A stretch of DNA of 64,000 bases from Rhodococcus jostii NBRC 16295 (lineage in GTDB: Bacteria; Actinomycetota; Actinomycetes; Mycobacteriales; Mycobacteriaceae), in assembly GCF_001894825.1 (NCBI RefSeq), contig NZ_BCWY01000007.1:1-64000 (forward strand), read 5' to 3'. Within the stretch, counting starts at the first letter, position 1, and every line of letters starts with the position of its first letter. Under the pieces are notes generated by a model. It searched no databases and was not told where the DNA came from. It saw nothing but the letters and a program-made list of their open reading frames with translations. Below, in pieces: positions 1,231 through 37,895 of this stretch. Position numbers and translations under genes: made by a program.

Positions 1231-1517
1231 CGGATGGCTCCTTCCGAATGTCGGGCAGAGAGGGTTTCCAGACACGGTAGGTCGTTCGGATGGCTGAATT
1301 GTCATCCTCCGCGGGTGAAAGCGGATGGGCGGTTTGCGTGGTTTCACCCCTCTCGGGTGAGGTCACGTCGTAACCGGGGTGACACTGTGCAGGGTAAGTC
1401 CGGGTGCTGCGTTGGAGGAAGATCGCCGGCCGCGCGCCATGTGAAATGACCACGAGGTCGACGCCCGCGGACAGTTGCGGCCGGCGGAGGCCTGCGCGGC
1501 GCGGTGGAAGGGGTTCC

Positions 1518-3413
1518 ATGTCCAGCCAGACAGATGCCACGGCGAGCGTGCACGGCGCGAACGGGGACGCGTTGCAGCAGCTCCCGTTCGGAGACGAACA
1601 GGATCTCGCCGATGTCGAGCGGGGGTTCGTCGCGGCTCTCGAGCCCGGTGTCGTGACAGGGACCGACGGAAAGGTGGTGTGGGACAGCGACGCGTACTCG
1701 TTCCTCGAGCAGGATTGCCCGCCCACGGTGCATCCGAGTTTGTGGCGGCAGTCGCGGCTGTGTGCGCGGCAAGGCCTGTTCGAGGTCACCGACGGTATCT
1801 ACCAGATCCGTGGCCTCGATCTGTCGAACATGACCCTGGTCGAAGGCGACACCGGCGTCATCGTCATCGATCCGCTGATCTCCGCGGAGACCGCGGCCGC
1901 GGGGCTGTCGCTGTATCGGGCTCAGCGCGGTGACCGTCCGGTGACCGGGGTGATCTTCTCGCATTCGCACATCGATCACTTCGGCGGCGTCAAGGGGGTC
2001 ACCACCGAAGACGACGTCGCGGCAGGGCATTGCCCGATTCTGGCACCGGCGGGTTTCGTCGAACACTCCGTCGCGGAGAACGTGTATGCCGGCGCCGCGA
2101 TGGCACGACGGTCCGCATACATGTACGGGGCTGCGCTGCCTCGTGGGCCGCAAGGCGCCGTGGGGGCCGGGCTCGGCCCCACCACCTCGACGGGAACTCC
2201 CACCCTCATTACGCCCACCGTCGACATCGATCACACCGGCCAGACCGAGACCGTGGACGGAGTTCGGATCGAGTTCCAGCTCACCCCGGGCACCGAGGCG
2301 CCGTCGGAGATGAACTTCTATTTCCCCGACCGGCGAGCGCTCTGCATGGCCGAGAATGCCACCCATACGCTGCACAACCTGCTGACGTTGCGCGGCGCCC
2401 TGGTTCGCGATCCCCATGTATGGGCGAAGTACTTGACCGAGTCGATCAACCGGTACGCCGCCCGCACCGACGTGCTCTTCGCCTCCCATCATTGGCCGAC
2501 GTGGGGAACCGACCGGCTCACCGAGTTCCTGTCCGTCCAGCGTGACCTGTACGGGTATCTCCACGATCAGACTCTGAGAGCGCTCAACAAGGGCGCCACC
2601 GGAATCGAGATCGCCGAGGCGATCGAATTGCCGCCGGCTGTGGCACAGGCGTGGCACACGCACGGCTACTACGGTTCGGTCAGTCACAACGTCAAGGCGA
2701 TCTACCAGCGCTACATGGGCTGGTTCGACGGCAATCCCGCGAAGCTGTGGGAGCACACGCCCGTCGAATCCGCCAAGCGGCACGTCGAATTCATGGGCGG
2801 TGTGGACGAGACGCTCCGCAAGGCCCGCGAATCCTATGCCGCGGGCGACTTCCGCTGGGTCGCGCAGGTGCTGAATTACGTGATCTTCGCCGACCCCGGC
2901 AACGCCGAGGCGAAGGCATTGCAGGCCGACACCCTCGAACAGCTCGGGTACGGATCCGAGAACGGCACCTGGCGGAACTTCTTCCTCATGGGCGCCTACG
3001 AACTCCGCAACGGGTCTGTCGGTACGCCCATCGTCACTGCCTCCCCGGATATTTCGGCGGCACTGACGGTGGAGCAGGCCTTCGACGCGATCGCGCTGCG
3101 GGTCGACGGGCCCCGAGCCTGGTCTGCCGACCTCACCATCGACTGGAACATCAAAGATGAGGGTGTCGCACACCGAACTCAGCTACACAACGGGGTACTG
3201 GTGCACTTCGACGTCGACGGGGAGATGCCCGCACCCGATGCGGCGTTCACCCTGACCCGGCCGGACCTACTCGCGGCGTTGCTCGGCGGCAAGGACCTGG
3301 GCGAGATGATCTCGGGCGGCAGCGTCGAAGTGGACGGCGACGCCACCACGTTGACGGAGTTGGTCGGCTACCTCGACGCTCCCGACCCGGACTTTGCGAT
3401 CGTCACACCGTAG
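1518..3413 (+). CDS. SdsA-like alkyl sulfatase (MBL fold), full length
   Basis: A 631-residue secondary/primary alkylsulfatase of the SdsA1/BDS1 group, which hydrolyses alkyl sulfate esters. The MBL zinc motif HSHIDH lies at residues 149-154. The AENATHTLHN segment, the middle alkylsulfatase dimerisation domain (around YMGWFDGNPAKLW) and a C-terminal SCP-2-like domain ending DPDFAIVTP follow in the expected order. Length matches the family. Start ATG at 1518 has GGAAGGGG upstream; the frame is open before it but resembles nothing. No signal peptide is evident, unlike secreted Pseudomonas SdsA1. It is transcribed divergently from DUF389 and ends at a strong bidirectional hairpin. It is paralogous to the gene at 40338-42236. 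Confidence 0.9.
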   Translation: MSSQTDATASVHGANGDALQQLPFGDEQDLADVERGFVAALEPGVVTGTDGKVVWDSDAYSFLEQDCPPTVHPSLWRQSRLCARQGLFEVTDGIYQIRGLDLSNMTLVEGDTGVIVIDPLISAETAAAGLSLYRAQRGDRPVTGVIFSHSHIDHFGGVKGVTTEDDVAAGHCPILAPAGFVEHSVAENVYAGAAMARRSAYMYGAALPRGPQGAVGAGLGPTTSTGTPTLITPTVDIDHTGQTETVDGVRIEFQLTPGTEAPSEMNFYFPDRRALCMAENATHTLHNLLTLRGALVRDPHVWAKYLTESINRYAARTDVLFASHHWPTWGTDRLTEFLSVQRDLYGYLHDQTLRALNKGATGIEIAEAIELPPAVAQAWHTHGYYGSVSHNVKAIYQRYMGWFDGNPAKLWEHTPVESAKRHVEFMGGVDETLRKARESYAAGDFRWVAQVLNYVIFADPGNAEAKALQADTLEQLGYGSENGTWRNFFLMGAYELRNGSVGTPIVTASPDISAALTVEQAFDAIALRVDGPRAWSADLTIDWNIKDEGVAHRTQLHNGVLVHFDVDGEMPAPDAAFTLTRPDLLAALLGGKDLGEMISGGSVEVDGDATTLTELVGYLDAPDPDFAIVTP

Positions 3414-3421
3414 TGCCGCCG

Positions 3422-3459
3422 AACCCCGCGACCACCTGAGCAGGTCTGGTCGCGGGGTT
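3422..3459. terminator. Bidirectional hairpin terminator
   Basis: Perfect 13-bp inverted repeat: AACCCCGCGACCA at 3422-3434 and its complement at 3447-3459, with a 12-nt loop. It lies between convergent genes and covers the stop codon of the minus-strand metalloprotease. No long U-tract follows, as is common in actinobacteria. Confidence 0.75.
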
Positions 3460-4726
3460 ATTCGGAGGCGCCACCGAGGTCCAATTCGAGTCGGTCCTCC
3501 TCGAGCCGGACCACTCGAACGGTGCGCGGTTCCCCTGCCGCGGTGGTCACCTCGAGCCTGCCGTCGTCCGCGGACACCCACGTGCCCTCCCGTGCTTCGT
3601 TGGCGTCACCCCGGCCTATCACCCAATCGACGAACGAGCCGTCCGGCCGGAATTCGATACCGCCGCGCCCCCGCGCCCGCGGGAAGTCGTATCCGGCGGG
3701 CCGGTACACGCGGAGGCCGTCGTGGTCTTCCTCGAACGAATGCCCCCAGCGGCCGGCGGCGTCTCTGGCGAGGACGGCGGACGAGGCCGGACTCGCGGCC
3801 CGCCCGGTCCACAACTGCTTCCGGACCGTATCGAGGCAGGCACCCATCCGGGCGCCCTGCCCCTTGGTGAACATCACCATCCCGACGTCGTCGGTGTAGT
3901 CCATGTAGTCCATGAACAGGTCGCCGTGCGGGCCGTTTCCGCAGCTGACGTGGGGGAAACGCGGCATCCCGACGTTCTGTCCGCCCTGGTTGGGGGTGTC
4001 GGCGACCTCGTCGGAGCCGCGGCACCCGGTGCCGTCGTCACCCCAGATATGGAAGAGGTTGAAGTAGTGGCCGACCTCGTGGGTCGCGGTGCGCCCGAGG
4101 TTGAACGGGGCCCGAGCGGTGCCCGTCGTCCCGAACGCGGTGTAGGTGATCACGACGCCATCGGTGGCGACCGGGCCGCCCGGGAACTGCGCGTACCCGA
4201 GCAGTCCGCCGCCGAGCGCGCAGACCCAGATGTTCAGATATCTCGGTGTCGGCCACGGATCGGCGCCGCCGCTGGCTGCGGACTTGACGCCGTCGCCCTG
4301 GTCGAACGCCGTCACTTCGGTTGCGGTGCGGGTAATTCCGTTCGTGGGACGTCCGGACGGGTCGGTGTCGGCGAGGAAGAACTCGATGCCCGCGTCGCCG
4401 ACCAGATGCTCGAAGACGGACGGGACGGTGTCCACGTCGTCGTTGGCGGCCCGGAAATCCTTGTTGAGCACCGCGATCTGGCTCTCGATCTGCGCGTCCG
4501 AAATGTTCTGCGCGACAGTGTTCGACACGACGTGCACCACCACCGGAATCCGCGCGACACCGCGGGCGGAGATCGACTGCAACGATTCCAGTTCGAGGGT
4601 CCGGTTCTCGATCTCAGACCGGGCGATCCGGTACGACTCCGATTCGGTCAACAGCCGGCGATGCACGTCCATCGCCCCGCACGTGCGGCGCGTGGGCGGA
4701 TCGACGGGTGTTTCGTTGCTGCTCAT
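3458..4726 (-). CDS. M43 (pappalysin-like) zinc metalloprotease, apparently cytosolic
   Basis: A 422-residue metzincin. [11 protein letters not shown] at residues 216-226 gives the HExxHxxGxxH-type zinc site (H216, H220, H226; E217 general base). The Met-turn is probably FMDYMDY near residue 275. [20 protein letters not shown] is typical of M43 cytophagalysin/pappalysin proteases. A beta-rich C-terminal segment of about 90 residues, unrecognised, follows. Most M43 enzymes are secreted, but the N-terminus here ([14 protein letters not shown]) has no signal peptide. ATG at 4726 is chosen because anything longer overlaps the upstream gene; AAAGGA precedes it. It is the last gene of the four-gene hydrolase block, 23 nt after the trypsin-nuclease gene. 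Confidence 0.85.
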
Positions 4727-4749
4727 GATGACGTGGGTCCTTTCCGGCG

Positions 4750-6687
4750 TCAGAGAACGAGGTCCTGGGGGCGAATGAGTTCGCGAGGCAGGGCGCTCGC
4801 CTCGATCCGCTCGAGCGGGTCTGCCGCGATGTACGGGTCCAGGCCCAGCCCGGTCAACTGGGCGATCCGCCGGACGGGAACCTGGAAGGTGCGGTACGCG
4901 CCGTAGGAGAACGCCTCCTCCCCTTCCGCGAACTCGTCGAGCAGCGCGGCCTGGCTGAGCAGATATCCCGTGACCGACAGCGCGCCGTCCTGCTTCACCA
5001 TAGCCACCGTCTTCCAGAATTGGCGCGGCAACGACACCCCGCGATACTCGGGGTCGTCCGGCGCCAGAACGGGTCCGGTGACGACGCTGACGGCGAGATC
5101 GGCGGTCTCCGCGTTCTTCAGGACGTAGTCTTCGAGGCCCAGCCACAGTGTCTGGCCGGCGTTGAAACTGTGGTGCTGCGGGGCGCAATTGGTGAAGTGG
5201 AATGTGTCGTCGTTCGCGGCCTTGGCGAGGGGACCCCACGCCGGGTCGAGACGCCGCACGAGATGCCCGCGGTCGAGCGGGTTGTCGCGATACACCTCCT
5301 CCCCGGTCTGCTGTTCGGCCGGAAGTCGGGGGTCGAGGATCCATCGGTCGCTGTCGCGTCTCGGGCTCTGCGATTGTGTGCCGTCGATGTTCACGGCGGT
5401 GAACAGTGCGAGTGCCCGCTCGCGGTGCATCACGACGCTGAAGTGGTGATACTTCAACTCCGGTGACGCGACCGACGGCGTCCCGGGCTCCGGAAGCGGC
5501 AGGAGAACGCGGAGGAAGTTCGGGTCGTACCCGACGCGGGTGCTGTAGTTCGGGTCGATCGAGATCGCCTCGGGCGCAGCGTTTCGCCCGGCTGCCGGCG
5601 ACTCGACAGATCCGAGGCGGACGATGATCTCGAGCGGCACCCGGACGGTCACTTCCTGTTCGTGTTCGACAGCCGCGGGGACCGTCGGTGCCGTCCGCTC
5701 CGCGCGGACGATGTCGTCGACGAGGCCGCGCGAGTGTGGTGGCAGGTTCTGGGCCCGCACGAATTCGAGGATCCGGCTGATCCGCACCCCCTCGTTGAGG
5801 AACCCGCCGAACTCGATGTGCTGCGGCGCCCGCACACTGGCGTGATGCAATGCGACCACCTCCCACTGATCATTAAAGACCGGTGAGCCCGAGGATCCGG
5901 GTTCCGTGTCCGCCGAGTAGTGCAGGAACCGTTCGGGAATGTCGACGATGCGGTTCTCCCGCAGGGCGATCTGCTTCTTGTCGCCGCGGGGGTGCTGCAC
6001 AATGGTCACGAATTCACCGATGATGGCCTTGCCCTCCGCCTGGATCAGGGGGTTGAACCCGAACTGGGCGAGCGCGCCGGGCTCTGCACCGACGGCGACG
6101 AGGGCGAAGTCGCGTTCGCGGTCGGCGAGAAAGAACCGGGCCGGGTCGAGGGGGAACATCTGCACGGGGCGTGGCTTCCCGTCGACACCGTCCTGGTAGT
6201 CGAACTCGATCACGCTGCAGCGGGCGGTGTCCGCGTCCGGCAGCACGTGATGGTTGGTCAGCAGCAGGGTCGGCGAGACGAGGAAGCCGGTGCCGTAGCC
6301 CTGCAGAGCGCCTCGTGCGTCGCGGATGTTCACGCGCCCGATCGACCGTGCCGCGGCGACACCGGCTTCGAGGTACCGGGCGCCGACGAAATCAGCGGTA
6401 TTGATGATCTTCTCGAGAACCTGATCGGGGATCGTGTCGGACTCCCACTCACCGGCCGCGTAGTAACGGCCGAGTCGGTCCACGCGTTTGGCGATCCGTT
6501 CGGGAGTGTCCGCCGCCGCGACGCCGCCGGGACCGTTGAGTGCGTCGACGTGTTCGCCTCGCTGCGGCGCCCGTTCGCGGGCACGCAGTTCGGCCGCGTC
6601 GTGTTGCCGTTGCCGTTCCGACGCGAACGTTCCGGTGGGCATCTCGCGCTGCGACTGCCCGTCTCCGATGCTGTCGACGATGGTCAT
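4750..6687 (-). CDS. Trypsin-like protease fused to DNA/RNA non-specific endonuclease
   Basis: A 645-residue two-enzyme fusion. Residues about 110-310 form a trypsin-fold protease: [18 protein letters not shown] with His147, DFALVAV with Asp193, and GSSGSPVF with the likely nucleophile Ser266. Residues about 400-645 form a NUC1-type ββα-metal nuclease: DRGH at 472-475 (catalytic His475) and [20 protein letters not shown] with a likely metal-binding Asn near 509. The first 100 residues are polar and may be regulatory. There is no signal peptide. This fits an intracellular effector in which the protease part may control the nuclease. It lies 83 nt after the CHAT gene on the same strand. Start ATG 6687 has GAGGA upstream. 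Confidence 0.88.
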
Positions 6688-6770
6688 GACGCTGTCCTCA
6701 CGTAGGTCGGCCGCTCTGTGTTGTGAGGACGAGCCTCCTCGCCGCGTCCGCCCCGGTCATGCGTAGTCGG

Positions 6771-9734
6771 CTACTCGTTTCTGGGGCCGGCATCGTCGTC
6801 GGCGCGTTCGTACTGCTCGACGCCGTTCCGGACGACCCGTCGTATGCGGGTGCCGTCCGCGACGAGGCCGTCGAGCAGCGGGACCGCCAGTTCCGGACGG
6901 AGGGGGGTCTCCGCGAGGAGTTGCCCGAGTTCGAGTGCGTCGGACCCGATCGCGCCGACGAGGACATTGCGTCGCGAGGAGTTCAGTGCCGCCTCCACGT
7001 CGAGTCTTTTCGCGGTGCCGCCGCGCTCCGTCGGTATCGGTGCCGCCGTCTTCACCAGCAGCGCCCGGACCTCCTGCGCGGACAGGTCGCGGTCGGTCGC
7101 CCACACCAGCATTGCCGCGACGGCCACGTACAGCGCGGCGAACGTCGTGCCCTCCATCTCCGGCCGATCGACGAGGTGCTCGCAGGCCGTGTCGGTGATC
7201 GTCCGCGGCGCGTAGACGTCCGGTTTGCCGACATCGGGGTAGTACGGGGTTTCGTGGGTGAGTGTGCCGTCGTCCTCGATGGCGCCGACCGCGAAGGCGT
7301 CCGCGGTCCAGGCGGGATAGGCCGGCTCGTCCGAGTGGTCACCCGAGACGATCACGAGTCTTCCGTCGCTTCCCAGGCGGGCGATCACGGCGTTCTGCGC
7401 GTCCGAGGGCACCGCGTTGCCGTAGTCGAACACCAGGATGTCGGCGTCGGCCGCGGCTGCATCGGCCATCCACCGGCAGACGTCGCGCTCCGAGGGGACT
7501 CCGTCCGCGAAGGCCAGCTCCTGCGGAAGCAGTTCGGCCAGAGCCGATTCGCCCTCCCCCGTTTCTCCGGCGACCACCCGCCCCGGCACCCCGTGCTTGA
7601 TGGCGCACTGGGTGACCGCGACGGCGATCTCCTCGCGTCGGCCCACGGTGAACGGGCCCGCCACCGCCAACCGCAGCGCGCGCCGCACCGGTGCCGCGGT
7701 CGCCGCGGCTACCTCCGGCACCGCGGTCTCGGCCCCGAAGAAGTCGGATCCGCTCGGTTCCGGTTCCGGGGTTTTCGCGGTACCGACGCCGAGTTGCCGG
7801 ACGAGGTTCGGCAGCTCCTGCGGTTCGAAAGTCCCGTTCTGGGCGGCGAGATCCGCCAACTGCTCCCACAATTCGAGGTGCCGGACGTCGGTGTAGAGGC
7901 GGGAGAGGTCCTTCTCCGGGTAGCGGGTCAGTGCCGGCAGGTTGCGCCGGATCCATTGCCACACTTCCGGCCAGGACAGGGCGTCCAGGCGGATCGTGCG
8001 CACTTCCGAGGGTCGGAGCGGCCGCGTCAGTTCGGCGAGGTCCCCGGTGGTCGCCACCGCCAACCGCGCACACCCGCGCCGTTCGGTCAGGAGCATCAGC
8101 GCGCTGAGCAGATCGGCGGCGCCGGGTGTGTCGCCGAGGAGCAGATCGCCGTCGTCGATCACGATCGCGGCCGGGACTTCGGTGAGGTCGCCGAGCAGTC
8201 GCTCCCACCAGTCACCGGCACTGAATCTGCCTTCCCGCACGGTGCGCGCCCCGGCGTCCCGCATCAGTTCGGCGACGAGACGGGCGAGTTCACGCACCGG
8301 GTCCGGTTCCGCGAGAAGACGTTTCGCGCTGATGAACAGGAGCGCGATTCCCGGGTCGAGTTCTTCGAGAATCCGGTCCAGGAGGGCCGTCTTTCCCGTG
8401 GACGGCATTCCGACGACGTGGAGCAGGCGCGCGGACGTCTGCCCGGACAGCACATCCACCCCCTCACGCAGTTCCGCGAGCCGGGAGATGAACCGGAGTT
8501 CGCCCTGGCGGATGCCGAGTCGCAGTCCGATCCGTCGTGGGGCGGGCTCCGGCCGCGCCTTCGCCTCGGGGTCGATGATCGCGCCGGGTTCACTGCCGCC
8601 GACGAACAGGCACGGCACCGCCCAGTCGAGAAGCGGTTCGCCGCTGTTCTCGTCGCCGTTGATCGCGAGCCGGGCCAGCCGCAACGCCTCCGCCACGGGT
8701 TGCCCGGCGGTCAACGCCTGGTAGAAGAACCGCGTCAGCAATCGCTCCGTCCGGAAGGGCAGCACCGCCTGCATCCCGATCACCATCGGGCACGCGTCCC
8801 GCACGCAGATGTCCGCCGACGACAGCGGCCCCGGCCACGGGTCGTCGTCGACGACGCCGTCCGGCGCGCGTGCCGTCTCACAGCCCGCGAACACCGCCAG
8901 CCGAAGGTCCGGCAGTTGCTGCAGCAGCAACGCGAATTCCTGGCTGGGCAGCAGCATCCCGCGGCCGTTGCGACGCTCCAGCTTGAGCCCGTCCGGATTG
9001 GCGTGGCCGAGGTAGTGGAAGAGGTGAAAACCGCGTCTCTGCATGCCCATTCGACTGCGGAGCCGTTCGACCGACGGGCGGTCCTCGACCACCACGCGGA
9101 GCAGGCCACGGTCGATCAGCGGCTGCAGTTCCGACAGCAGGCTGCGTTTCTCGGCATACAGGTCGAACGGGGCCTCGGCATCCTCCGGACCCACCCGCAG
9201 GGGGCTCGACATCACCAGCAGGAGATTGAGCGGCGGCTCGATCGGGGTCTGCCGAATCGGGTAGGTGCGGGACCGCCCGGATCGCACGACGTGGACGTCG
9301 CGGGCCATGGCGAGGAACTGGTCGGGTCGCTGCGGATCGAGCAGCAGCTCCCACGGCCAGGCGCACACTTCCTGCGGCGCGGCGAGGACACGCACGAGGA
9401 GCTGAGTCCCCGACGTACCCGCGATTCCCCGGCTCTGTTGCAGCAGCGTGACGATGTCGGGGACCCCGAACACGAGGTCCGTCAACACCTTCCCGACGTC
9501 GAGTGCGTGGGAGGCCGCGTCGGTGCGCGCATGCCGGACGGTGTCGGTGAGCCAGTCGGACGGCGCGTCGACCGTCTTGCCGGTGACGTCGTTCGGCAGT
9601 TTCCATTCCGGGACGGATCGCCGCACCGCGAACACCGAGCCCATCCGCGACTGCGCCGAGAGCCAGACGTGGTCGCCCGCCCGCAGCACGCTGATCTCCA
9701 GTTCCTCGAATCCGGGTGCGGTCTGCGGTCTCAT
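6771..9734 (-). CDS. CHAT caspase-like protease + P-loop NTPase + degenerate subtilase protein
   Basis: A 987-residue multidomain protein. Residues about 100-380 are a CHAT domain (caspase-HetF associated with TPR, clan CD): FHLFHYLGHANPDG gives catalytic His244 and LAVFAGCETA gives Cys285. Residues about 400-640 are a P-loop NTPase: Walker A GMPSTGKT at 442-449 and Walker B AIVIDDGD ending at 530. Residues about 685-915 look like a subtilase (S8) fold: YPAWTADAFAVGAIEDDG and EGTTFAALYVAVAAML. The catalytic Ser of the GTSxA motif is Thr864 and no HGT motif is visible, so this part is probably inactive. The last 70 residues may be winged-helix. ATG 9734 follows GGAG. Such a sensor-switch-protease layout is typical of conflict or programmed-death regulators. 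The real target is unknown. Confidence 0.85.
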   Translation of the reverse strand: MRPQTAPGFEELEISVLRAGDHVWLSAQSRMGSVFAVRRSVPEWKLPNDVTGKTVDAPSDWLTDTVRHARTDAASHALDVGKVLTDLVFGVPDIVTLLQQSRGIAGTSGTQLLVRVLAAPQEVCAWPWELLLDPQRPDQFLAMARDVHVVRSGRSRTYPIRQTPIEPPLNLLLVMSSPLRVGPEDAEAPFDLYAEKRSLLSELQPLIDRGLLRVVVEDRPSVERLRSRMGMQRRGFHLFHYLGHANPDGLKLERRNGRGMLLPSQEFALLLQQLPDLRLAVFAGCETARAPDGVVDDDPWPGPLSSADICVRDACPMVIGMQAVLPFRTERLLTRFFYQALTAGQPVAEALRLARLAINGDENSGEPLLDWAVPCLFVGGSEPGAIIDPEAKARPEPAPRRIGLRLGIRQGELRFISRLAELREGVDVLSGQTSARLLHVVGMPSTGKTALLDRILEELDPGIALLFISAKRLLAEPDPVRELARLVAELMRDAGARTVREGRFSAGDWWERLLGDLTEVPAAIVIDDGDLLLGDTPGAADLLSALMLLTERRGCARLAVATTGDLAELTRPLRPSEVRTIRLDALSWPEVWQWIRRNLPALTRYPEKDLSRLYTDVRHLELWEQLADLAAQNGTFEPQELPNLVRQLGVGTAKTPEPEPSGSDFFGAETAVPEVAAATAAPVRRALRLAVAGPFTVGRREEIAVAVTQCAIKHGVPGRVVAGETGEGESALAELLPQELAFADGVPSERDVCRWMADAAAADADILVFDYGNAVPSDAQNAVIARLGSDGRLVIVSGDHSDEPAYPAWTADAFAVGAIEDDGTLTHETPYYPDVGKPDVYAPRTITDTACEHLVDRPEMEGTTFAALYVAVAAMLVWATDRDLSAQEVRALLVKTAAPIPTERGGTAKRLDVEAALNSSRRNVLVGAIGSDALELGQLLAETPLRPELAVPLLDGLVADGTRIRRVVRNGVEQYERADDDAGPRNE

Positions 9735-9748
9735 GTCTCCGCGCTCCT

Positions 9749-11149
9749 CTAGACGTCGACCGACCGGGCGATCTCGTCGAGGTCGACCACACTCGCGACG
9801 TCGGTCACCGGATGCACCCCGGGGGCGTGCACGGTGATCCGGTAGTCCTGGGCGGTGAGCCCGTCGAGGCTGGTCCGCTGCCAGCCGTCGACGGTCGTCG
9901 ACAAGGGGTGCTGCCGGCTCGGACCGCCCGCGACGGGCTCGACCGTCGCGACGAGCCGCGCGGCCTCGGCACCGGTTCGCGCTCGGATCACCAGCGGCTC
10001 GGCGGTGGTGACGTCGTCGACGAGCAGTGCAACGGATTCGTTGACCGCCGGAAACACGTTCGGGGGCGCCAGAACTGCGGTTGTCAGGATGCCGCCGACG
10101 TGGTCGAGCACCGGGTCGTCGTTCTGCAGGGATCCGTGTTTCTGGCTGAAGAAGGCCGCGTTCTTCCATCCCGTCATGAGTTCGTGCGGGATCGACGACA
10201 GTTTCGGCACGGTGCCGTCGCCGCCGCTCTCCCCCGGTCCGCGCACGGTGAGCGTCTCGACCTTGTCCCCGGCGAGCCGGGCGGCCCACTTGGTGGGCTG
10301 GAAGTCGCCGATCACCGGACGGATGTCGTAGCCGTCGTGTCCCGGCTTCAGCCGCTCGTCGACGGCGTCGCGCAGGTCCCGGTGCAGGCGCACCGCCGCA
10401 GCCATCCGGTCGGCGTCGAGACCGGTCCCCGACCAGTCGAGCTTCTCGTGGTCGAGCGCGAGCCACGACCCGTCGTCGCCCGCCATGCACCGATACGACG
10501 GCAGCAACTGGTAGGCGGAGGTGAACGAGCGGATCAGCGCACTGAGGTCGACGGTGAACGGACCCCAGCCCTTGCGGAACCCGTTGACCAGGAATTCGAG
10601 CGCGTTGACCGAGCCAGAGTACGGGGTGCCGAACGTGACGAGGGTGCGGGTGTCACGCCAGCCGTCCAGCAGTTCGAGGAAGAGGCGCGCGACGATTCCG
10701 CCCATCGAATGGCACACCAGGACGAGCTTCGCGTCGGCATTGCCCGACGTCTCGCGCCACCGCGACAGCCACTCGTGGGATCGCCGGGCCAGGGCGCGGG
10801 CCGCCACCCGGTTGTCGCGCCGCCAGTCGTAGGGGAACTCGAAATAGTTGTCGCCGGGGACCACCCCGAACCGGCGGACGACGTCGTTCCGGAACTTCGT
10901 GTAACCGTCGATCTTCCAGTCCAGCCCGGGAACGAAATGGAAGTCCGGGACCAGCCGGGTGGCGACGACGCCGTCACCGAGGTCGTCGAGGTCCGGATCG
11001 TCCCCGTCGAGTTGCAGGCGTTTGATGTTCCCGCCCAGCGACAGCACACCCGCCAGCGCGGCTCCCGGTGTCGGCGCCCACACGTTCTTGCCGTCGCGGG
11101 CGAGGACCGACCCGCCGATGCCGGGCAACAACACGACTACGTCTTGCAT
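9749..11149 (-). CDS. LCAT/PGAP1-like alpha/beta-hydrolase (lipase/esterase)
   Basis: A 466-residue alpha/beta-hydrolase. Its N-terminal LLPGIGGSVL oxyanion segment and overall text resemble lecithin:cholesterol acyltransferase-like lipases. The triad can be read as Ser148 (CHSMGG), Asp311 (GGDGTVP) and His338 (SQKHGS). The last 100 residues form a separate beta-rich domain. The N-terminus begins directly with MQDVVVLLPG and has no signal peptide. ATG 11149 has a good site (GGAGG). It is the first gene of the hydrolase block, ending 14 nt before the CHAT gene start, which argues for co-transcription. A membrane-damaging effector is possible, but the substrate is not known. Confidence 0.82.
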   Translation of the reverse strand: MQDVVVLLPGIGGSVLARDGKNVWAPTPGAALAGVLSLGGNIKRLQLDGDDPDLDDLGDGVVATRLVPDFHFVPGLDWKIDGYTKFRNDVVRRFGVVPGDNYFEFPYDWRRDNRVAARALARRSHEWLSRWRETSGNADAKLVLVCHSMGGIVARLFLELLDGWRDTRTLVTFGTPYSGSVNALEFLVNGFRKGWGPFTVDLSALIRSFTSAYQLLPSYRCMAGDDGSWLALDHEKLDWSGTGLDADRMAAAVRLHRDLRDAVDERLKPGHDGYDIRPVIGDFQPTKWAARLAGDKVETLTVRGPGESGGDGTVPKLSSIPHELMTGWKNAAFFSQKHGSLQNDDPVLDHVGGILTTAVLAPPNVFPAVNESVALLVDDVTTAEPLVIRARTGAEAARLVATVEPVAGGPSRQHPLSTTVDGWQRTSLDGLTAQDYRITVHAPGVHPVTDVASVVDLDEIARSVDV

Positions 11150-11272: not shown

Positions 11273-11842
11273 TCAGCGCTGCGCGAAGTTGAGGTAGGCC
11301 TTCGACGGCGTCGGCCCGCGCTGGCCCTGGTACTTGGAGCCGACGGCGGAGCTGCCGTACGGGTGCTCCGCCGCGCTCGACAGCCGCAGCAGACACAGCT
11401 GGCCGATCTTCATCCCCGGCCAGAGGGTGATGGGCAGGTTCGCGACGTTGGAGAGTTCGAGGGTGATGTGCCCGTTGAAACCGGGGTCGATGAACCCGGC
11501 CGTGGAGTGCGTCAGCAGTCCGAGACGGCCGAGCGAGGACTTGCCCTCCAGGCGTCCGGCCAGGTCGTCGGGCAGCGAACACACCTCCAGCGTGGATCCG
11601 AGAACGAACTCCCCGGGGTGCAGGACGAACGGCTCGCCCTCGGCCGGCTCGACCAGCGTCGTCAGCTCGTCCTGCCGCTGAGCTGGGTCGATGTGCGTGT
11701 AGCGGGTGTTGTTGAACACCCGGAACAGGCTGTCGAGGCGGACATCCACGCTCGAGGGCTGGACCATCGAATCGTCGAACGGGTCGATGCCCAGACGTCC
11801 AGCGGAAATTTCGGCACGGAGATCGCGATCGGAGAGGAGCAC
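11273..11842 (-). CDS. dcd: dCTP deaminase (probably bifunctional dCTP deaminase/dUTPase)
   Basis: A 189-residue protein of the Dcd family, which makes dUTP (or dUMP when bifunctional) from dCTP for thymidylate synthesis. Family landmarks include [12 protein letters not shown] at the start, [24 protein letters not shown], the catalytic-region [16 protein letters not shown] and the C-terminal [12 protein letters not shown]. Length is typical. In Mycobacterium tuberculosis this enzyme carries both activities; that is an inference here. It is a core gene, 123 nt upstream of the hydrolase block on the same strand. Confidence 0.97.
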
Positions 11843-20551: not shown

Positions 20552-21757
20552 TCAGGTCGAGGCGCGATAGAAGCTACGCGAGACGTAGCTGGGTGCGTCT
20601 TTAGCCAGAAGCGCACTCAGTTCGAACTTAAGTGTGCGGGCGTGGTGGGCCTCTGGAAAGTCTGCGGTCGCGAGTGCCAGCAGATCGACGACGTGTAGCG
20701 CCTCCTGAACCCGTCCGGCGTCACGTAGTCGGTGCGCCTGGTCGAGCACGGCCTGTTTGTCGGTGATCGCTGCCGCGCGCGCGTTGGCGGCGATGTCGGG
20801 CCGGGCGGGGTGTAGGTGGGTGGGGTTGCCGTCCCACCACCCGGTTTCCGAGCGGACGATGTCCCGCACGATGAAGTCCCGATGCCCGTAGGCTTGTCGC
20901 ATCCACGGCACGTCGAACAGTTCGGTCGGGTAGTCGATATCGTGCACGATGTCGTCGACACCCATTCCCTTGTTGAGGCGTTCCACGACGGCTCTGCGCA
21001 GCCAGCGAAGTGCCGCCGAGGTGGCGGCCAGCTGCTCGGCGCCGACGTCGTGGATGACTGATCCGAACTCGGGGATCAGGACGGCGGGGTTGAGGGCCGC
21101 AAGACTGTCGAGGGTGTTCGCCCACCGCCCGGCGTCCCGCATGGTGCGCATGGGGGTGCCGATGTTCGGGATGCTGTCGATGACTGCGGCGCTCCCGTAG
21201 AGGATCCGTTCCTGTGGCAACCACACGGCGGTGACATCGTCTGTCTCCGAAGGCGCCCACAATAGCCGGACCTGCCTGGTTGGGCCGCCGAGTGTCATTG
21301 CATCCCGGTAGGTTTGGTCGGGGAACGTGACGGTCGGCACTGGCGCGAACTCTTCGATCGGCCGACGGAACTGGCGGGAGTTGATGTGGTTTTGGAGTCC
21401 GGCGGTCTCGATGTAGCGACGGTAGCGGCGAACGACATTCTCGTGGGCGATGATTGTCGGGCGTGGTTCCCCGCGCCTTTCGGCTTCTACCAGGAACCCG
21501 GGCACACCGTAGTTGTAGCCGAGATGGCCGTGGCTGTAGACGATCCAGCGGACTGCCTGGTCGGTGTGTTCGCGGAGTTGTGCGAGCGCCTGAGGAACCA
21601 CGGATGGACTCGGTCCGGAGTCAACGACGAGCAATCCCTCATCAGTTTCTACGGCCAAGCTGTTTCCCTGTAGGCCCATCGTGAAAATTCCTGGCGCAAC
21701 AACGGTGATTTCGGTGCCGCCGAACAGCGGGTTGTTCTCGATTTCCGCTACGGGCAT
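20552..21757 (-). CDS. Alkylsulfatase-type MBL protein with altered metal motif
   Basis: A 401-residue protein with an MBL domain and the alkylsulfatase dimerisation segment (SETGWWDGNPTHLHP), but no C-terminal SCP-2 domain. The metal motif is degenerate: residues 76-81 read HGHLGY where HxHxDH is expected, so the Asp and second His of the Zn2 site are Gly80 and Tyr81. The later block reads APSETDDVTAVW where its neighbour has GETDDAAIAW. It may be mononuclear, inactive or regulatory. ATG 21757 has GGAAGGAG upstream. It lies downstream of the intact relative at 22470-23789, with two DUF202 genes between. Confidence 0.85.
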   Translation of the reverse strand: MPVAEIENNPLFGGTEITVVAPGIFTMGLQGNSLAVETDEGLLVVDSGPSPSVVPQALAQLREHTDQAVRWIVYSHGHLGYNYGVPGFLVEAERRGEPRPTIIAHENVVRRYRRYIETAGLQNHINSRQFRRPIEEFAPVPTVTFPDQTYRDAMTLGGPTRQVRLLWAPSETDDVTAVWLPQERILYGSAAVIDSIPNIGTPMRTMRDAGRWANTLDSLAALNPAVLIPEFGSVIHDVGAEQLAATSAALRWLRRAVVERLNKGMGVDDIVHDIDYPTELFDVPWMRQAYGHRDFIVRDIVRSETGWWDGNPTHLHPARPDIAANARAAAITDKQAVLDQAHRLRDAGRVQEALHVVDLLALATADFPEAHHARTLKFELSALLAKDAPSYVSRSFYRAST

Positions 21758-22135: not shown

Positions 22136-22482
22136 GACGACAATGCCGCTCCGGCGGCGAGGAGGGTGAGGATCCCCAGACCGAGAGCGAGAGCGGGCAC
22201 GAGGACGGAGCCCGGAAGTGGCAGGTTCCGCCTGATGGCCGACTGCGCGGCCCTCCAGCGCAGATATGCGCCGGAGGCGAGGACAGTGGATAGCCCGAAA
22301 CACACCATCGTGATCGTCATCTGCAGTGCCCCGGAGGGCAACGCAAGTAACTGATGGGCAGCCACGCCTGCCGCCAGGAGCGCCATAGCGGTGCGGATCC
22401 ATGCCAGGTAGGTGCGTTCGTTCGCCAGCGTGTACCGGTAGTCCGGTTCCTCATCCACCGAATCTGAGGTCAGAATGCCCAT
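22132..22482 (-). CDS. DUF202 (YidH-like) membrane protein (first of pair)
   Basis: About 116 residues. YTLANERTYLAWIRTAMALL is the DUF202 signature, followed by three membrane segments. ATG 22482 lies inside the end of the MBL gene, overlapping it by 13 bases, so it is in the same transcript. The start could be a little further upstream, but the signature is intact with this choice. Function unknown. Confidence 0.85.
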   Translation of the reverse strand: MGILTSDSVDEEPDYRYTLANERTYLAWIRTAMALLAAGVAAHQLLALPSGALQMTITMVCFGLSTVLASGAYLRWRAAQSAIRRNLPLPGSVLVPALALGLGILTLLAAGAALSS

Positions 22483-23789
22483 CGCGCGCGGCCGGCCGTT
22501 TTGGCTTTCAGTTCGGTCGCGTGGTCGCTGCCGTCGAGGAAGGCCCGCGATTCGGCCACTGCCCAGCCGTAGACGCCTTTCGCCATGGTGGAAGTGGCAC
22601 CTTGTTCCAGCTGGCCGAAGATGTCGACGCGGGCCTGATGCGAGTCGCGGCTCTGCGGATCGGCGTCGGTGGCCATCTGGGCGAAGTGTCCCGCCAGCCG
22701 GTGTTCGCCTCGTGCCAGTAGGGCGCGGGCCCGCTCGGCCAGTTGGGCGGCGCCGCCGCCGAGGTCCGCGACCTCGCGGGCGAGGTCGGCGCGGGCGGCG
22801 GACTTGAGGTTGGCGGGGTTGCCGTCGTACCAGCCGCCGTAGAGGCGCCAGACGTTGCGAATGACGAATTCCGGTTCGTCGTAGGAGGGGGCGAGGTAGG
22901 GCTTGCGGAGCAGTTCGGCGGGGGCGGTGACGGTGTGCACGACCTCGTCGAGGGTCGCTCCCGCGTTCATCATCTCGATTGTGCGGCCATGCAGGATTTC
23001 CAGGAGTTCGGCGGCGTCGGTGAGGGTGGTGCGGATTCGGTCGGCGCCGAGGATCGGGAGCCCGTGTCCGGGGAGGAGGATTTCGGCGCCCAGGTCGGCC
23101 ATCCACCGCAGGGTTTGGGCCCATTCGTGTGCGAAGCGTTGCACCTTCTGTGGGTTTCCGGCGTTGGGGCTGGCCCAGATGAAGAAGTCACCACAGCACA
23201 GGATCTTGCGGTCGGGGATCCAGGCGATCGCGGCGTCATCGGTCTCGCCGCGGGCGTGATGGAGTTGCACCTGCAGGTCGTCGATGGCGAGGGTGGTCTG
23301 GTCGGTGAAGGTGACGTCGGGGTATCGGTATTCGTCCGGCCACGTCAGGTTCGGCGCCTGGAATTGGCGTTGGTTGATGATGCCGTTGTAGCCGCGGGTT
23401 GTCTTGTAGCGGTCGAACCGGCTGATGACGTTTTCGTGTGCGAGGACCGTGGGTCGGGTCCAGCCGCGCTCGCGCGCTTCGGTGTCGAACGGTTCCATGC
23501 CGAAGACGTGGTCGACGTGTCCGTGCGAGTAGACGGCCGTGTGCACCGGTTGCTCGGAGATTCGCCGGGTGGCTGCGAACAGGTCTTCGGCGGTGCGGCG
23601 GTCGCCGGTGTCGTACACGAAAAGCCCCGCGTTAGTGGGAAATACGTAGACGTTGCCGAACGCCGGCCACATGTATGCGCCTTCCGCGATGTAGTGCATT
23701 CCCTCCTTCCGGAGGTCTCCGTGGTGGTAGGCGTTCTGGTTGGCTTCGCCCTTCCAGACCTTGTCGGCGTAGTCGATGATGTCCGTCAT
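22470..23789 (-). CDS. Alkylsulfatase-type MBL hydrolase (catalytic plus dimerisation domains)
   Basis: A 439-residue MBL hydrolase. The metal motif HGHVDH is intact at residues 89-94; HARGETDDAAIAW and GDFFIW supply further conserved residues. The alkylsulfatase dimerisation segment YGGWYDGNPANLK follows, but the SCP-2 domain of full alkylsulfatases is absent. ATG 23789 has GAGGAGAG upstream. It heads a minus-strand transcript with two DUF202 genes and the degenerate MBL paralogue. A perfect inverted repeat lies 114 bp upstream, next to the PucR regulator gene. The natural substrate could be a sulfate ester or another ester. Confidence 0.88.
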   Translation of the reverse strand: MTDIIDYADKVWKGEANQNAYHHGDLRKEGMHYIAEGAYMWPAFGNVYVFPTNAGLFVYDTGDRRTAEDLFAATRRISEQPVHTAVYSHGHVDHVFGMEPFDTEARERGWTRPTVLAHENVISRFDRYKTTRGYNGIINQRQFQAPNLTWPDEYRYPDVTFTDQTTLAIDDLQVQLHHARGETDDAAIAWIPDRKILCCGDFFIWASPNAGNPQKVQRFAHEWAQTLRWMADLGAEILLPGHGLPILGADRIRTTLTDAAELLEILHGRTIEMMNAGATLDEVVHTVTAPAELLRKPYLAPSYDEPEFVIRNVWRLYGGWYDGNPANLKSAARADLAREVADLGGGAAQLAERARALLARGEHRLAGHFAQMATDADPQSRDSHQARVDIFGQLEQGATSTMAKGVYGWAVAESRAFLDGSDHATELKAKTAGRARWAF

Positions 23790-23902
23790 GTGGCGCTCTC
23801 CTCGGCGTGGCTGTCGGACCGCGACACTGCGATCCGTGCGCCTCATTCTGTGCACCGAACATCAGCCGAACAATCGTCTGCGCGCACACCCCTGCCGGCC
23901 CC

Positions 23903-36188: not shown

Positions 36189-37895
36189 ATGGCCGCACGG
36201 AAGACCACCCAGCGACGCTCCAGTCCCAGACGAGCCAGCGTCGCGCCGCTGATACCCACCCCGGGGCACGGGGAGCAGATCTGGATCCTCGACGTCCCTT
36301 ACCGGGCGCCCGCGCCCGGTGCCAAGTACTACAAGGCACTCAAAGCATATGCCTACATCGGCGCTCAATTGCCTGACGAACTCGTCGTCTACGCGTCGAA
36401 GCCGTACTCGTACAGCCGCTGGGTCGAAGAGGACCTCAACGGCGTGCGGCAACCGGGCGCTACCGGCTTCCACAAGACACCGCGCCCCGAACAGGTGGAC
36501 GCCGCGAAGGCGATCGCGACGGCCTTTGACCACGGTAAGCGTGGATTCCTGCTGGCCGACGAGCCGGGTGTAGGCAAGACCGGCAGTGCGATCATCGGCG
36601 CGAAGGCTGCGCTGAAATTGGGGGGCGGCGACACCGTACTCATCACCGTTGACCGGCCGGCCCAGATCACCATCGCCGCGTGGCGCGACGCCCTCGCTGC
36701 GTTCGGAGACGGAGGGTATCGGTGGCTGATCATCTCCCCGGACCAGCTGAAGAAGTTGCTCGGGCGCAACGGCCAACCGAAGTACTCCTTTTCCCTCATC
36801 ATCAATGACGAAGCACAGCAATTCAGGCACCTCACGGCCCAGCGCACCCAGTACCAGCGGCGCGTCAACCGCCTCTCCGCATCACCAGAGAAGGCGCCGT
36901 TCGTGATCACCGTGACGGCGACGCCGGGTCATCACCCCGGCGAATACACCTACCTGTCTGCGCTTTTCGCGCAACTGCACGATGACCCGCCGGGTGAGTG
37001 GGCCGATCTCGGTAAGAAGCTGGTCGAGCATGGCCTTCCCCTGGCTCCCGGGTGGGACAAGGGCAAATGGGATTGGAACGACCAAGCAAAAGGTTCCCAG
37101 CGGTTGCAGAATCAGGCCGTCACCCACGTCCGGAAGTGGATGACCGACTGCGACCCGCCCGTCATGGTGCATCGCGACGCGCCGTGGGGGGCGGCACCTA
37201 TCGACGGCCTGCCGCTCGACTTCACCGCCACACAATGGGCTGCGTACCACCAGGACTGGAGTGAGTTCCGGAGCGCAATGAAGATCGCCCGCCAGGGTAA
37301 CGACACCGCCCGAGGCCGTGCCGCTCTGATGCGATTCCGGCAGAAGGCGGGCATGCTGAGAGCCCCGCAGACCGCCGAGTTGGTAGCCGCACACGTCGAA
37401 CGCGGCTACCAGGTGCTCGTTGCCGTCGAATTGGTCACCACGGCCGCCGACCCGGTTGCGAGCCTCTTGGAGGAGCACGGCATTGGCGTCTCGCGCATCT
37501 TCGGCGGGGGCGATCTCGAGGCGGAGCGCATCAGATTTCAGCGCGGCCACAACCCGGTTGTGGTGTTCAACACCGCATCTGCGATCAATCTGCAGGCGTC
37601 CGAGTTGATGGTCGACGGCTCCCGCGCCTCATCGGCACGTCGCATCGGGTTCTTCCACCAGCCTCGCTATTCCGGGATTGCGGCACGCCAAACGATGGGT
37701 CGTGCGCATCGCGACGGGCAGGTTTGCTCATGGTCACTCCTGTTCGCCGCCGGAACGGTGGAAGAGCAGGCGGCTCGGATCATGATCAATCGGTTGATGG
37801 TGACCTCGGCCAGCGTCGATGGTGATCTCGCGGCGTTCGGGAAGCTCGCGCGGTTGTTCGACGCAGACTGGCTACCCGAAAGCATGTTCATGTAA
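36189..37895 (+). CDS. Phage-like SF2 (DEAD/SNF2-type) helicase
   Basis: A 568-residue superfamily 2 helicase. Motif I ADEPGVGKTGSA has Lys130-Thr131. Motif II is DEAQ at 207-210, motif III VTATPG, and motif VI QTMGRAHRDGQ at 501-511. The order and the GRAHRDGQ form are SNF2-like, as in helicases of actinobacteriophages. No nuclease or methylase partner adjoins it. It stands alone between a LysR remnant and an acidic protein gene, so it may be left from a prophage or mobile element. ATG 36189 has a weak GGGAATAG upstream. Confidence 0.85.
   Translation: MAARKTTQRRSSPRRASVAPLIPTPGHGEQIWILDVPYRAPAPGAKYYKALKAYAYIGAQLPDELVVYASKPYSYSRWVEEDLNGVRQPGATGFHKTPRPEQVDAAKAIATAFDHGKRGFLLADEPGVGKTGSAIIGAKAALKLGGGDTVLITVDRPAQITIAAWRDALAAFGDGGYRWLIISPDQLKKLLGRNGQPKYSFSLIINDEAQQFRHLTAQRTQYQRRVNRLSASPEKAPFVITVTATPGHHPGEYTYLSALFAQLHDDPPGEWADLGKKLVEHGLPLAPGWDKGKWDWNDQAKGSQRLQNQAVTHVRKWMTDCDPPVMVHRDAPWGAAPIDGLPLDFTATQWAAYHQDWSEFRSAMKIARQGNDTARGRAALMRFRQKAGMLRAPQTAELVAAHVERGYQVLVAVELVTTAADPVASLLEEHGIGVSRIFGGGDLEAERIRFQRGHNPVVVFNTASAINLQASELMVDGSRASSARRIGFFHQPRYSGIAARQTMGRAHRDGQVCSWSLLFAAGTVEEQAARIMINRLMVTSASVDGDLAAFGKLARLFDADWLPESMFM

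Follow-up and report, generated by a model that had tools for sequence, protein, structure and literature searches.

In the 64,000-nucleotide (nt) window analysed here (Rhodococcus jostii NBRC 16295, contig NZ_BCWY01000007.1, positions 1 to 64,000), four consecutive genes encode an LCAT-family lipase, a CHAT protease joined to a STAND-like P-loop NTPase and a degenerate subtilase domain, a trypsin-nuclease fusion and a metalloprotease of the M43 family. Judged from sequence, this block is probably a conflict system. With a confidence only a little above even, we read it as an intracellular set of executioner enzymes under an NTPase-gated protease cascade, serving cell death and most likely directed against phages or other invaders. 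It is the anatomy of the proteins, the strict linkage of their genes, the zymogen nature of the metalloprotease and the recurrent caspase-STAND partner of the lipase that together favour such an intracellular hydrolase cascade.

The four genes lie on the minus strand and follow one another in transcription order from the lipase through the CHAT protein and the trypsin-nuclease to M43, with gaps of 14, 83 and 23 nt (Table 1); open reading frame positions and Pfam matches confirmed this layout, which an earlier note made from the DNA alone had described. Third-position G+C was of coding type for three of the four reading frames, the M43 frame having entered the scan in its listed version, overlong at the 5' end, where it failed. 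All four genes are under purifying selection, with pairwise ratios of non-synonymous to synonymous substitution rates (dN/dS) of 0.095–0.208 against R. wratislaviensis, R. koreensis and R. tibetensis (M43 without R. tibetensis), beside 0.02–0.04 for the preceding dcd gene. Since the block recurs in other species and these pairwise ratios are low, it is more than a chance assembly. No promoter was found by a scan at the block, and terminator-like stems lie between dcd and the lipase gene (six found in the region, 3.4 expected).

Among 28 genomes of the genus, the lipase, CHAT and trypsin-nuclease genes occur in the same ten and are mutually adjacent (Fisher p 8e-8, not corrected for kinship), and M43 occurs in eight of these ten and in none of the 18 others. 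Co-occurrence of the families in other genomes had been set beforehand as a test of the earlier note's reading, and it came out in favour of it; together with the Fisher tests, it rules out chance linkage of the block genes. The dcd gene is present in 27 of the 28 genomes, with the block directly behind it in seven, behind an inserted regulator in two and absent in 18, while the tenth block genome (G581, 74% complete) gave no dcd match (G and L numbers are our labels for genomes and loci). Four of seven CHAT loci (L039, L040, L041 and L043) appear identical with four of the ten block genomes and add no cases; the cases gained beyond these ten are R. tukisamuensis and two Nocardia. All four genes are retained in R. 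tukisamuensis, where the flanking sequence retrieved contains no dcd. A DUF346 repeat closes the M43 frame of this species, and a different frame further along matches the C-terminal stretch of M43 from the window. In the two Nocardia, nuclease, lipase (68% identical) and CHAT protein (44%) stand in a row, with no M43 match within 10 kb. Furthermore, in two genomes of R. tibetensis type (G574 and G589) the place of M43 is taken by a 1061-residue protein with Peptidase_M23, Rv2525c-like, Amidase_2 and DUF4185 domains, a domain content that identifies it as a predicted peptidoglycan hydrolase exchanged for M43. Even if the block had no role in defence, this exchange would point to a variable effector position.

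The putative switch of the system is the 987-residue protein, which combines a CHAT domain (residues ~80–373, Pfam CHAT 1.3e-16), a P-loop NTPase (residues ~414–590, AAA_16 9e-7, under Pfam's own cut-off) and a subtilase-like domain (residues ~730–905, Peptidase_S8 1.6e-6). In an alignment of eight sequences, the window's own included, reaching down to 44% identity, the CHAT residues H240, H244 and C285 and the Walker lysine K448 are invariant, which bears out the choice of Cys285 and Lys448 as key residues in the earlier note. Its description of the subtilase domain as degenerate is equally sustained by the alignment: the serine of the GTS motif is replaced in six Rhodococcus sequences (by Thr in five and Met in one), and the two Nocardia proteins lack the stretch around the nucleophile and any Peptidase_S8 match, so a catalytic subtilase was rejected. 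The best 60 of 70 solved relatives of the whole protein are all subtilases and cover this degenerate domain. Pfam detected neither WD40 nor TPR repeats in the protein, which carries the dead subtilase and a tail instead. Its identity reaches 98% with a protein of another Rhodococcus assembly and 88–89% with those of R. koreensis and R. wratislaviensis, and in searches over the order (298 genomes) and the class (296 genomes), hits outside the genus were confined to parts of it, namely CHAT, subtilase or NTPase. A plasmid origin of the CHAT protein was rejected as well, its only plasmid matches being two distant ones in cyanobacteria, in contrast to the trypsin-nuclease, which matches 125 plasmid records. 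A second, weak CHAT match was observed elsewhere in the same genome (G000:C18:29890-30363).

The trypsin-nuclease unites Trypsin_2 (5.4e-29) and Endonuclease_NS (1.7e-48) in one protein, with solved relatives that include Spl/V8-type proteases, mitochondrial endonuclease G and Nuclease A. Its trypsin residues H147, D193 and S266 and the nuclease motif D472-R473-G474-H475 (DRGH) are invariant in the seven sequences aligned, the protease columns of the two Nocardia sequences being placed with less certainty, as their nuclease is preceded by a trypsin fold of another, NAL1-like type (weak Pfam NAL1_N; motifs by eye). From the best 40 rows of the 125 plasmid records, 13 neighbourhoods with flanks of 7–12 kb were picked by hand and their neighbouring domains taken from Pfam or from record annotation, or from open reading frames only for the unannotated Nonomuraea. 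A lipase-type gene occurs near the trypsin-nuclease in five of the 13, on the same strand as GDSL in Nostoc and R. johnstonii, phospholipase D in R. leguminosarum and DUF1350 (which we take to be an alpha/beta-hydrolase) in Stanieria, and on the opposite strand as phospholipase D plus patatin in Mesorhizobium. A metalloprotease is found in two (Nostoc and Stanieria) and a CHAT gene in one (R. leguminosarum). Unlike families can therefore take the same roles beside the fusion, though they do not always do so. On the R. leguminosarum plasmid, one strand carries in a row a phospholipase D-like gene, an S1/P1 nuclease, the trypsin-nuclease, an unknown gene and CHAT with weak TPR (L121:4122-12447), which by its domains forms a putative second assembly of similar activities. 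Other plasmid rows include DUF1350, trypsin-nuclease and a matrixin metalloprotease on one strand in Stanieria (L122:5554-10182), and in R. johnstonii a GDSL lipase 42 nt before the trypsin-nuclease, with SIR2-family and ATP-binding genes beyond (L128:5687-13350); in Paenibacillus the preceding gene looks agmatine-deiminase-like, by eye only.

The M43 protein is, from its sequence, a predicted pro-ulilysin zymogen. Its best solved relative, proulilysin 8cd8 (E 1e-114), aligns over residues 6–304, prosegment included, and the protein combines the cysteine-switch prosegment with the extended zinc motif HEVGH...H and the Met-turn of M43B ulilysin-type zymogens, followed by an additional C-terminal stretch. 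The switch cysteine C16 (RRTCGAM in the window; motif RR[TK]CGAM) is kept in all five sequences compared. As described in passages of PMC11674741, the prosegment cysteine blocks the zinc in the pappalysin family, and trypsin removes the prosegment of the relative cytophagalysin. A latent protease 23 nt behind a trypsin-nuclease fits a cascade, in which the one would be cut by the other.

The 466-residue lipase has group XV phospholipase A2 as its best solved relative (E 1.5e-4), its catalytic fold starts at residue 1, and S148, D311 and H338 are invariant in all 15 sequences of an alignment that took in eight of the 15 lipases found outside the genus. These three residues are presumed to form the catalytic triad, with roles assigned after the family, and the enzyme likely cuts membrane lipid. 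In the lipase tree, the seven CHAT-linked lipases form one clade (support 100/100), with long branches elsewhere.

Beyond the genus the lipase keeps company with another kind of switch. Of the 397 genomes searched in the order, 17 have the lipase; 15 of the 17 belong to other genera, and in 12 of these 15 a caspase-STAND gene stands beside it or in the same cluster. A caspase-STAND query, built from the G076 protein (so that G076 is found by construction), matches 16 of the 397 genomes, and both genes occur together in 12, spread over five families, where 0.6 would be expected (Fisher p 3e-17, without correction for kinship). This co-occurrence suggests that the lipase is the constant part and the caspase-superfamily NTPases its partners, and it adds to the test outcome in favour of the earlier note's reading. 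The two genes lie on one strand, overlapping or abutting, in eight genomes; they are divergent in G090 and G214 and convergent in G118, and in G186 four same-strand genes follow one another as caspase-STAND, TPR, TPR and lipase. The partners are long proteins that begin with a caspase-like His-Cys part, contain a STAND-type NTPase and in many cases also have WD40 or TPR repeats, and it is because of the His-Cys motifs that we call them caspase-like: H82, C134 and the Walker lysine are invariant in all ten aligned, the dyad being recognised by eye in G114 and G186. With a profile of their first 250–350 residues, the best hits among solved structures were MALT1 paracaspase (E 5.7e-4) and metacaspase-4 (E 0.0015). 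By Pfam, WD40 repeats occur in six partners (G090, G118, G214, G142, G076 and G244) and TPR in those of G638, G215 and, with a weak match, G621, and in G186 separate genes encode TPR; the repeat scan left out G653, and the G114 contig ends near the NTPase, before any repeats. The NTPase of the window aligns with those of the caspase-STAND proteins (hhalign probability 93.5, E 2.3e-7), an alignment from which we take the two as homologous. In a proposed group of caspase-superfamily STAND proteins with LCAT lipases, the window would share the His-Cys dyad (H244/C285, in eight of eight; H82/C134 in ten of ten partners) and the homologous NTPase, and it lacks the WD40 or TPR sensor repeats.

Three further observations were made around these pairs. 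In two genomes a gene for an SPFH/Band_7 (stomatin-like) protein immediately precedes the pair of caspase-STAND and lipase genes, and a third genome has one close to a CHAT-TPR gene (Table 1). Third-codon G+C of the pairs at L078:9157-14734 and L088:8482-13689 is ~0.45–0.65, under that of most neighbouring reading frames listed, a pattern like that of islands acquired recently. The lipase-caspase-STAND pair of G244 has a C-5 cytosine methylase and a Vsr endonuclease as neighbours (L092:3494-5370).

In the cascade that we favour, the CHAT protein would behave like an NLR. Its STAND-type NTPase would sense a trigger and then oligomerise; the sensing part might be the dead subtilase domain or the C-terminal tail, where the counterparts have WD40 or TPR repeats. 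Once oligomerised, the NTPase would turn on the caspase-family CHAT protease as initiator, which would in turn license the latent hydrolases of the same operon: the lipase would damage the membrane, the trypsin-nuclease would be set free to cut nucleic acid, and the ulilysin zymogen would shed its cysteine-switch prosegment, by the trypsin domain or by itself, and then degrade protein. The outcome would be cell death or growth arrest, most likely as an answer to a phage or another invader. The order of the cascade, its cleavage events, its trigger, the death of the cell and the role in defence are what we infer from these parts. More tentatively, the LCAT lipase might be the membrane executioner, in gasdermin's stead, of a widespread and undescribed class of NLR-like death systems with caspase-superfamily STAND switches (caspase-WD40, caspase-TPR and CHAT-pseudosubtilase), merged in Rhodococcus with NucA-trypsin and pro-ulilysin, the dead subtilase possibly acting as a built-in decoy for a protease, or a protease inhibitor, of phage origin; we hold this wider proposal to be possible yet doubtful.

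The same cascade could also be fired by starvation, envelope damage or development, as regulated self-lysis or stress death with no invader as target. It would suit such a role that LuxR-type LAL regulators stand on each side of the block in G574 and G589, and that in R. tukisamuensis M43 is followed by a SARP-type gene and then by an inverted peptidoglycan hydrolase, each setting including a peptidoglycan hydrolase; the block moreover lies behind a housekeeping gene, and 11 of the 16 other window genes scanned are metabolic enzymes (the remainder being three regulators, one DUF389 and one ResIII-like gene). We nevertheless judge it unlikely, as a patchy spread over 10 of 28 genus genomes and the fact that caspase-STAND proteins with differing repeats have recruited the lipase look like invader sensing, and as the G244 pair has a methylase and Vsr for neighbours. 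Enzymes secreted or released by lysis for feeding on other cells, with the CHAT-NTPase as regulator or maturation protease, seem to us rather improbable, although lipase, protease and nuclease, plus the cell-wall hydrolases of relatives and the DUF346 repeat, presumably lectin-like, would digest a whole cell. Secreted digestive enzymes would, according to the earlier note, speak against its own reading; here, type II secretion clusters enclose the trypsin-nuclease in two of the 13 plasmid neighbourhoods (both Cupriavidus), but signal peptides were not found. A simple hydropathy scan of N-termini (not SignalP) gave no clear signal peptide on the lipase, trypsin-nuclease and M43 homologues and no hydrophobic N-terminus on either Cupriavidus protein, and none was clear by eye on the CHAT protein, in agreement with the earlier note; the R. 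leguminosarum trypsin-nuclease is mildly hydrophobic at its N-terminus. STAND proteins are cytosolic switches, which also speaks against a digestive set, as does the lack of a phage-tail-sheath gene in the genome, where no Phage_sheath_1 match was obtained (3 of 14 control genomes matched) and a contractile injection exporter was accordingly rejected.

NucA-type nucleases and lipases are common antibacterial effectors, and the four proteins might be weapons against other bacteria nearby, leaving the cell along a signal-peptide-independent route. This appears very unlikely, given that no separate immunity gene lies between the four genes, that no export-signal domain is among their Pfam matches and that the sheath search, with type VII secretion outside its scope, was negative. 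An origin in phages or viruses was likewise rejected, scans of viral contigs for close relatives being empty for the CHAT protein, the trypsin-nuclease and the lipase (M43 lay outside the scan); PHROGs gave two weak matches, both to the trypsin-nuclease.

Several results weigh against the intracellular cascade as a defence system. No defence island was seen among the 16 other window genes scanned, and the block gave no strong PADLOC match, only weak domain matches, the best (6e-8) to the trypsin part, which weakly resembles the defence proteases RT-Protease_XI and LmuA. Frames are broken in two of the ten genus copies (the trypsin-nuclease in G581, M43 in G575). Six of the 13 plasmid trypsin-nuclease neighbourhoods, Nonomuraea included, are without lipase, metalloprotease, CHAT or secretion genes, and the two Cupriavidus clusters belong here as well. 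Three of the 15 outside-genus lipases have no caspase-STAND gene, two on short contigs (G013 and G171) and one on a contig that is not short (G267); conversely, the STAND hits in G168, G242, G614 and G683 have no lipase match, their alignments starting at query residues 243–263, past the caspase part. No Pfam caspase family is among the matches listed for the partners (the best 25 in six of these lists), and by profile the CHAT and caspase parts gave no alignment (probability 0.1), so that their common ancestry is not supported in this way, although CHAT and caspases are placed in one clade in a passage of PMC12881547. Finally, mature ulilysin-type enzymes hold structural calcium and one relative is secreted (passages of PMC11674741), which would be odd for the cytosol. 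The conflict or defence reading of the earlier note is in part supported, by the linkage in other genomes and by a known trypsin-NucA core, and weakened by the PADLOC result and the missing defence island.

Table 1. Genes of the block, the landmark gene in front of it, and stomatin-like genes near related loci.
Feature	Position	Strand	Basis
LCAT-family alpha/beta-hydrolase, predicted PLA2G15-like lipase, 466 residues	9749..11149	-	Pfam LCAT 1.2e-13
CHAT protease + STAND-like P-loop NTPase + degenerate subtilase + C-terminal tail, 987 residues	6771..9734	-	Pfam
Trypsin_2 + Endonuclease_NS (NucA/EndoG-like) fusion, 645 residues	4750..6687	-	Pfam, solved relatives
Pro-ulilysin-like M43B metalloprotease, 422 residues	3458..4726	-	Pfam Peptidase_M43 4.5e-12, solved relative 8cd8
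dcd (dCTP deaminase), landmark in front of the block, no proposed part in it	11273..11842	-	TIGR02274 3.6e-64
SPFH/Band_7 gene	L074:4411-5193		Pfam
SPFH/Band_7 gene	L075:14715-15512		by eye
SPFH/Band_7 gene	L080:4072-5007		Pfam

Elsewhere in the window, three alkylsulfatase-like genes were noticed (1404-3413, 20552-21757 and 22470-23855), together with a 568-residue protein whose sole match is ResIII (36189-37895).

If the favoured cascade is true, bacterial cell death of the caspase type would gain a lipase arm, and three themes known separately, NLR-like STAND switches, protease-activated nucleases and cysteine-switch metalloproteases, would come together in a small operon transferable between laboratory strains. 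Further members could be sought simply, by sequence, through the pairing of lipase and caspase-STAND genes, and the ulilysin zymogen would be a ready biochemical read-out of the cascade.

Parts of this picture have precedents. Section 32 of PMC7159879 predicts, as System 3, a NucA-trypsin conflict system run by a proteolytic cascade, in which a trypsin-like peptidase is fused to Endonuclease_NS and accompanied by extra peptidases, with STAND NTPases or peptidoglycan-attacking effectors in some members (Kaur et al. 2020); these systems are described mostly from alphaproteobacteria, some with EAD1, bDLD2 or transmembrane parts. The claim that the block is undescribed holds, for this reason, only in part, the trypsin-NucA core having been predicted already. 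The window has Endonuclease_NS and the fused trypsin-like peptidase; the STAND-trypsin-Death-like fusion of a System 3 subset is replaced by an NTPase fused to CHAT and a dead subtilase. Pfam holds a model of EAD1, an adaptor that is likewise a subset feature, and up to E 1 the four proteins gave no Pfam match to an effector-associated domain. CHAT-NTPase, LCAT lipase and pro-ulilysin are not mentioned in section 32, and words beginning with "CHAT", "lipase" or "LCAT" are absent from the main text of PMC7159879. The top-ranked results of the open-access literature included no description of a system that pairs an LCAT lipase with caspase-STAND or CHAT-NTPase proteins, which is no proof of absence. 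Passages in other sources report metacaspase-NACHT-WD40 proteins and varied operons (PMC3501461), and count alpha/beta-hydrolases as one of the effector domains that bacterial conflict systems link to adaptor domains (PMC8195603).

The activation of a latent nuclease by a caspase-family or trypsin-like protease would be a theme shared with the Canu and HamM/Avs pairs of phage defence, described in passages of Tuck et al. 2025 (PMC12799240), where the nuclease has an MBL fold (in Canu a pro-nuclease with gating insertions) and is a separate gene, and the caspase has an Ig-like part. By contrast, Pfam found no MBL domain in the four proteins of the window, in which Endonuclease_NS is fused to its own trypsin and joined by a lipase and a metalloprotease. 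Compared with Ulilysin/LysargiNase (M43B pappalysins; PDB 8cd8 and 2cki), the likeness extends over the cysteine-switch prosegment and catalytic domain, whereas the window's enzyme has no clear signal peptide, carries an extra C-terminal stretch and belongs to an operon with CHAT and lipase genes. Finally, fungal gasdermin genes are, according to passages of PMC12881547, under the control of NLRs that bear CHAT or S8 protease domains, and in these clusters and their bacterial counterparts a CHAT or subtilase protease on an NTPase receptor stands beside a membrane-attacking protein, as would be the case in the window. No gasdermin is among the four genes, and it is the LCAT-type lipase that would attack the membrane here.

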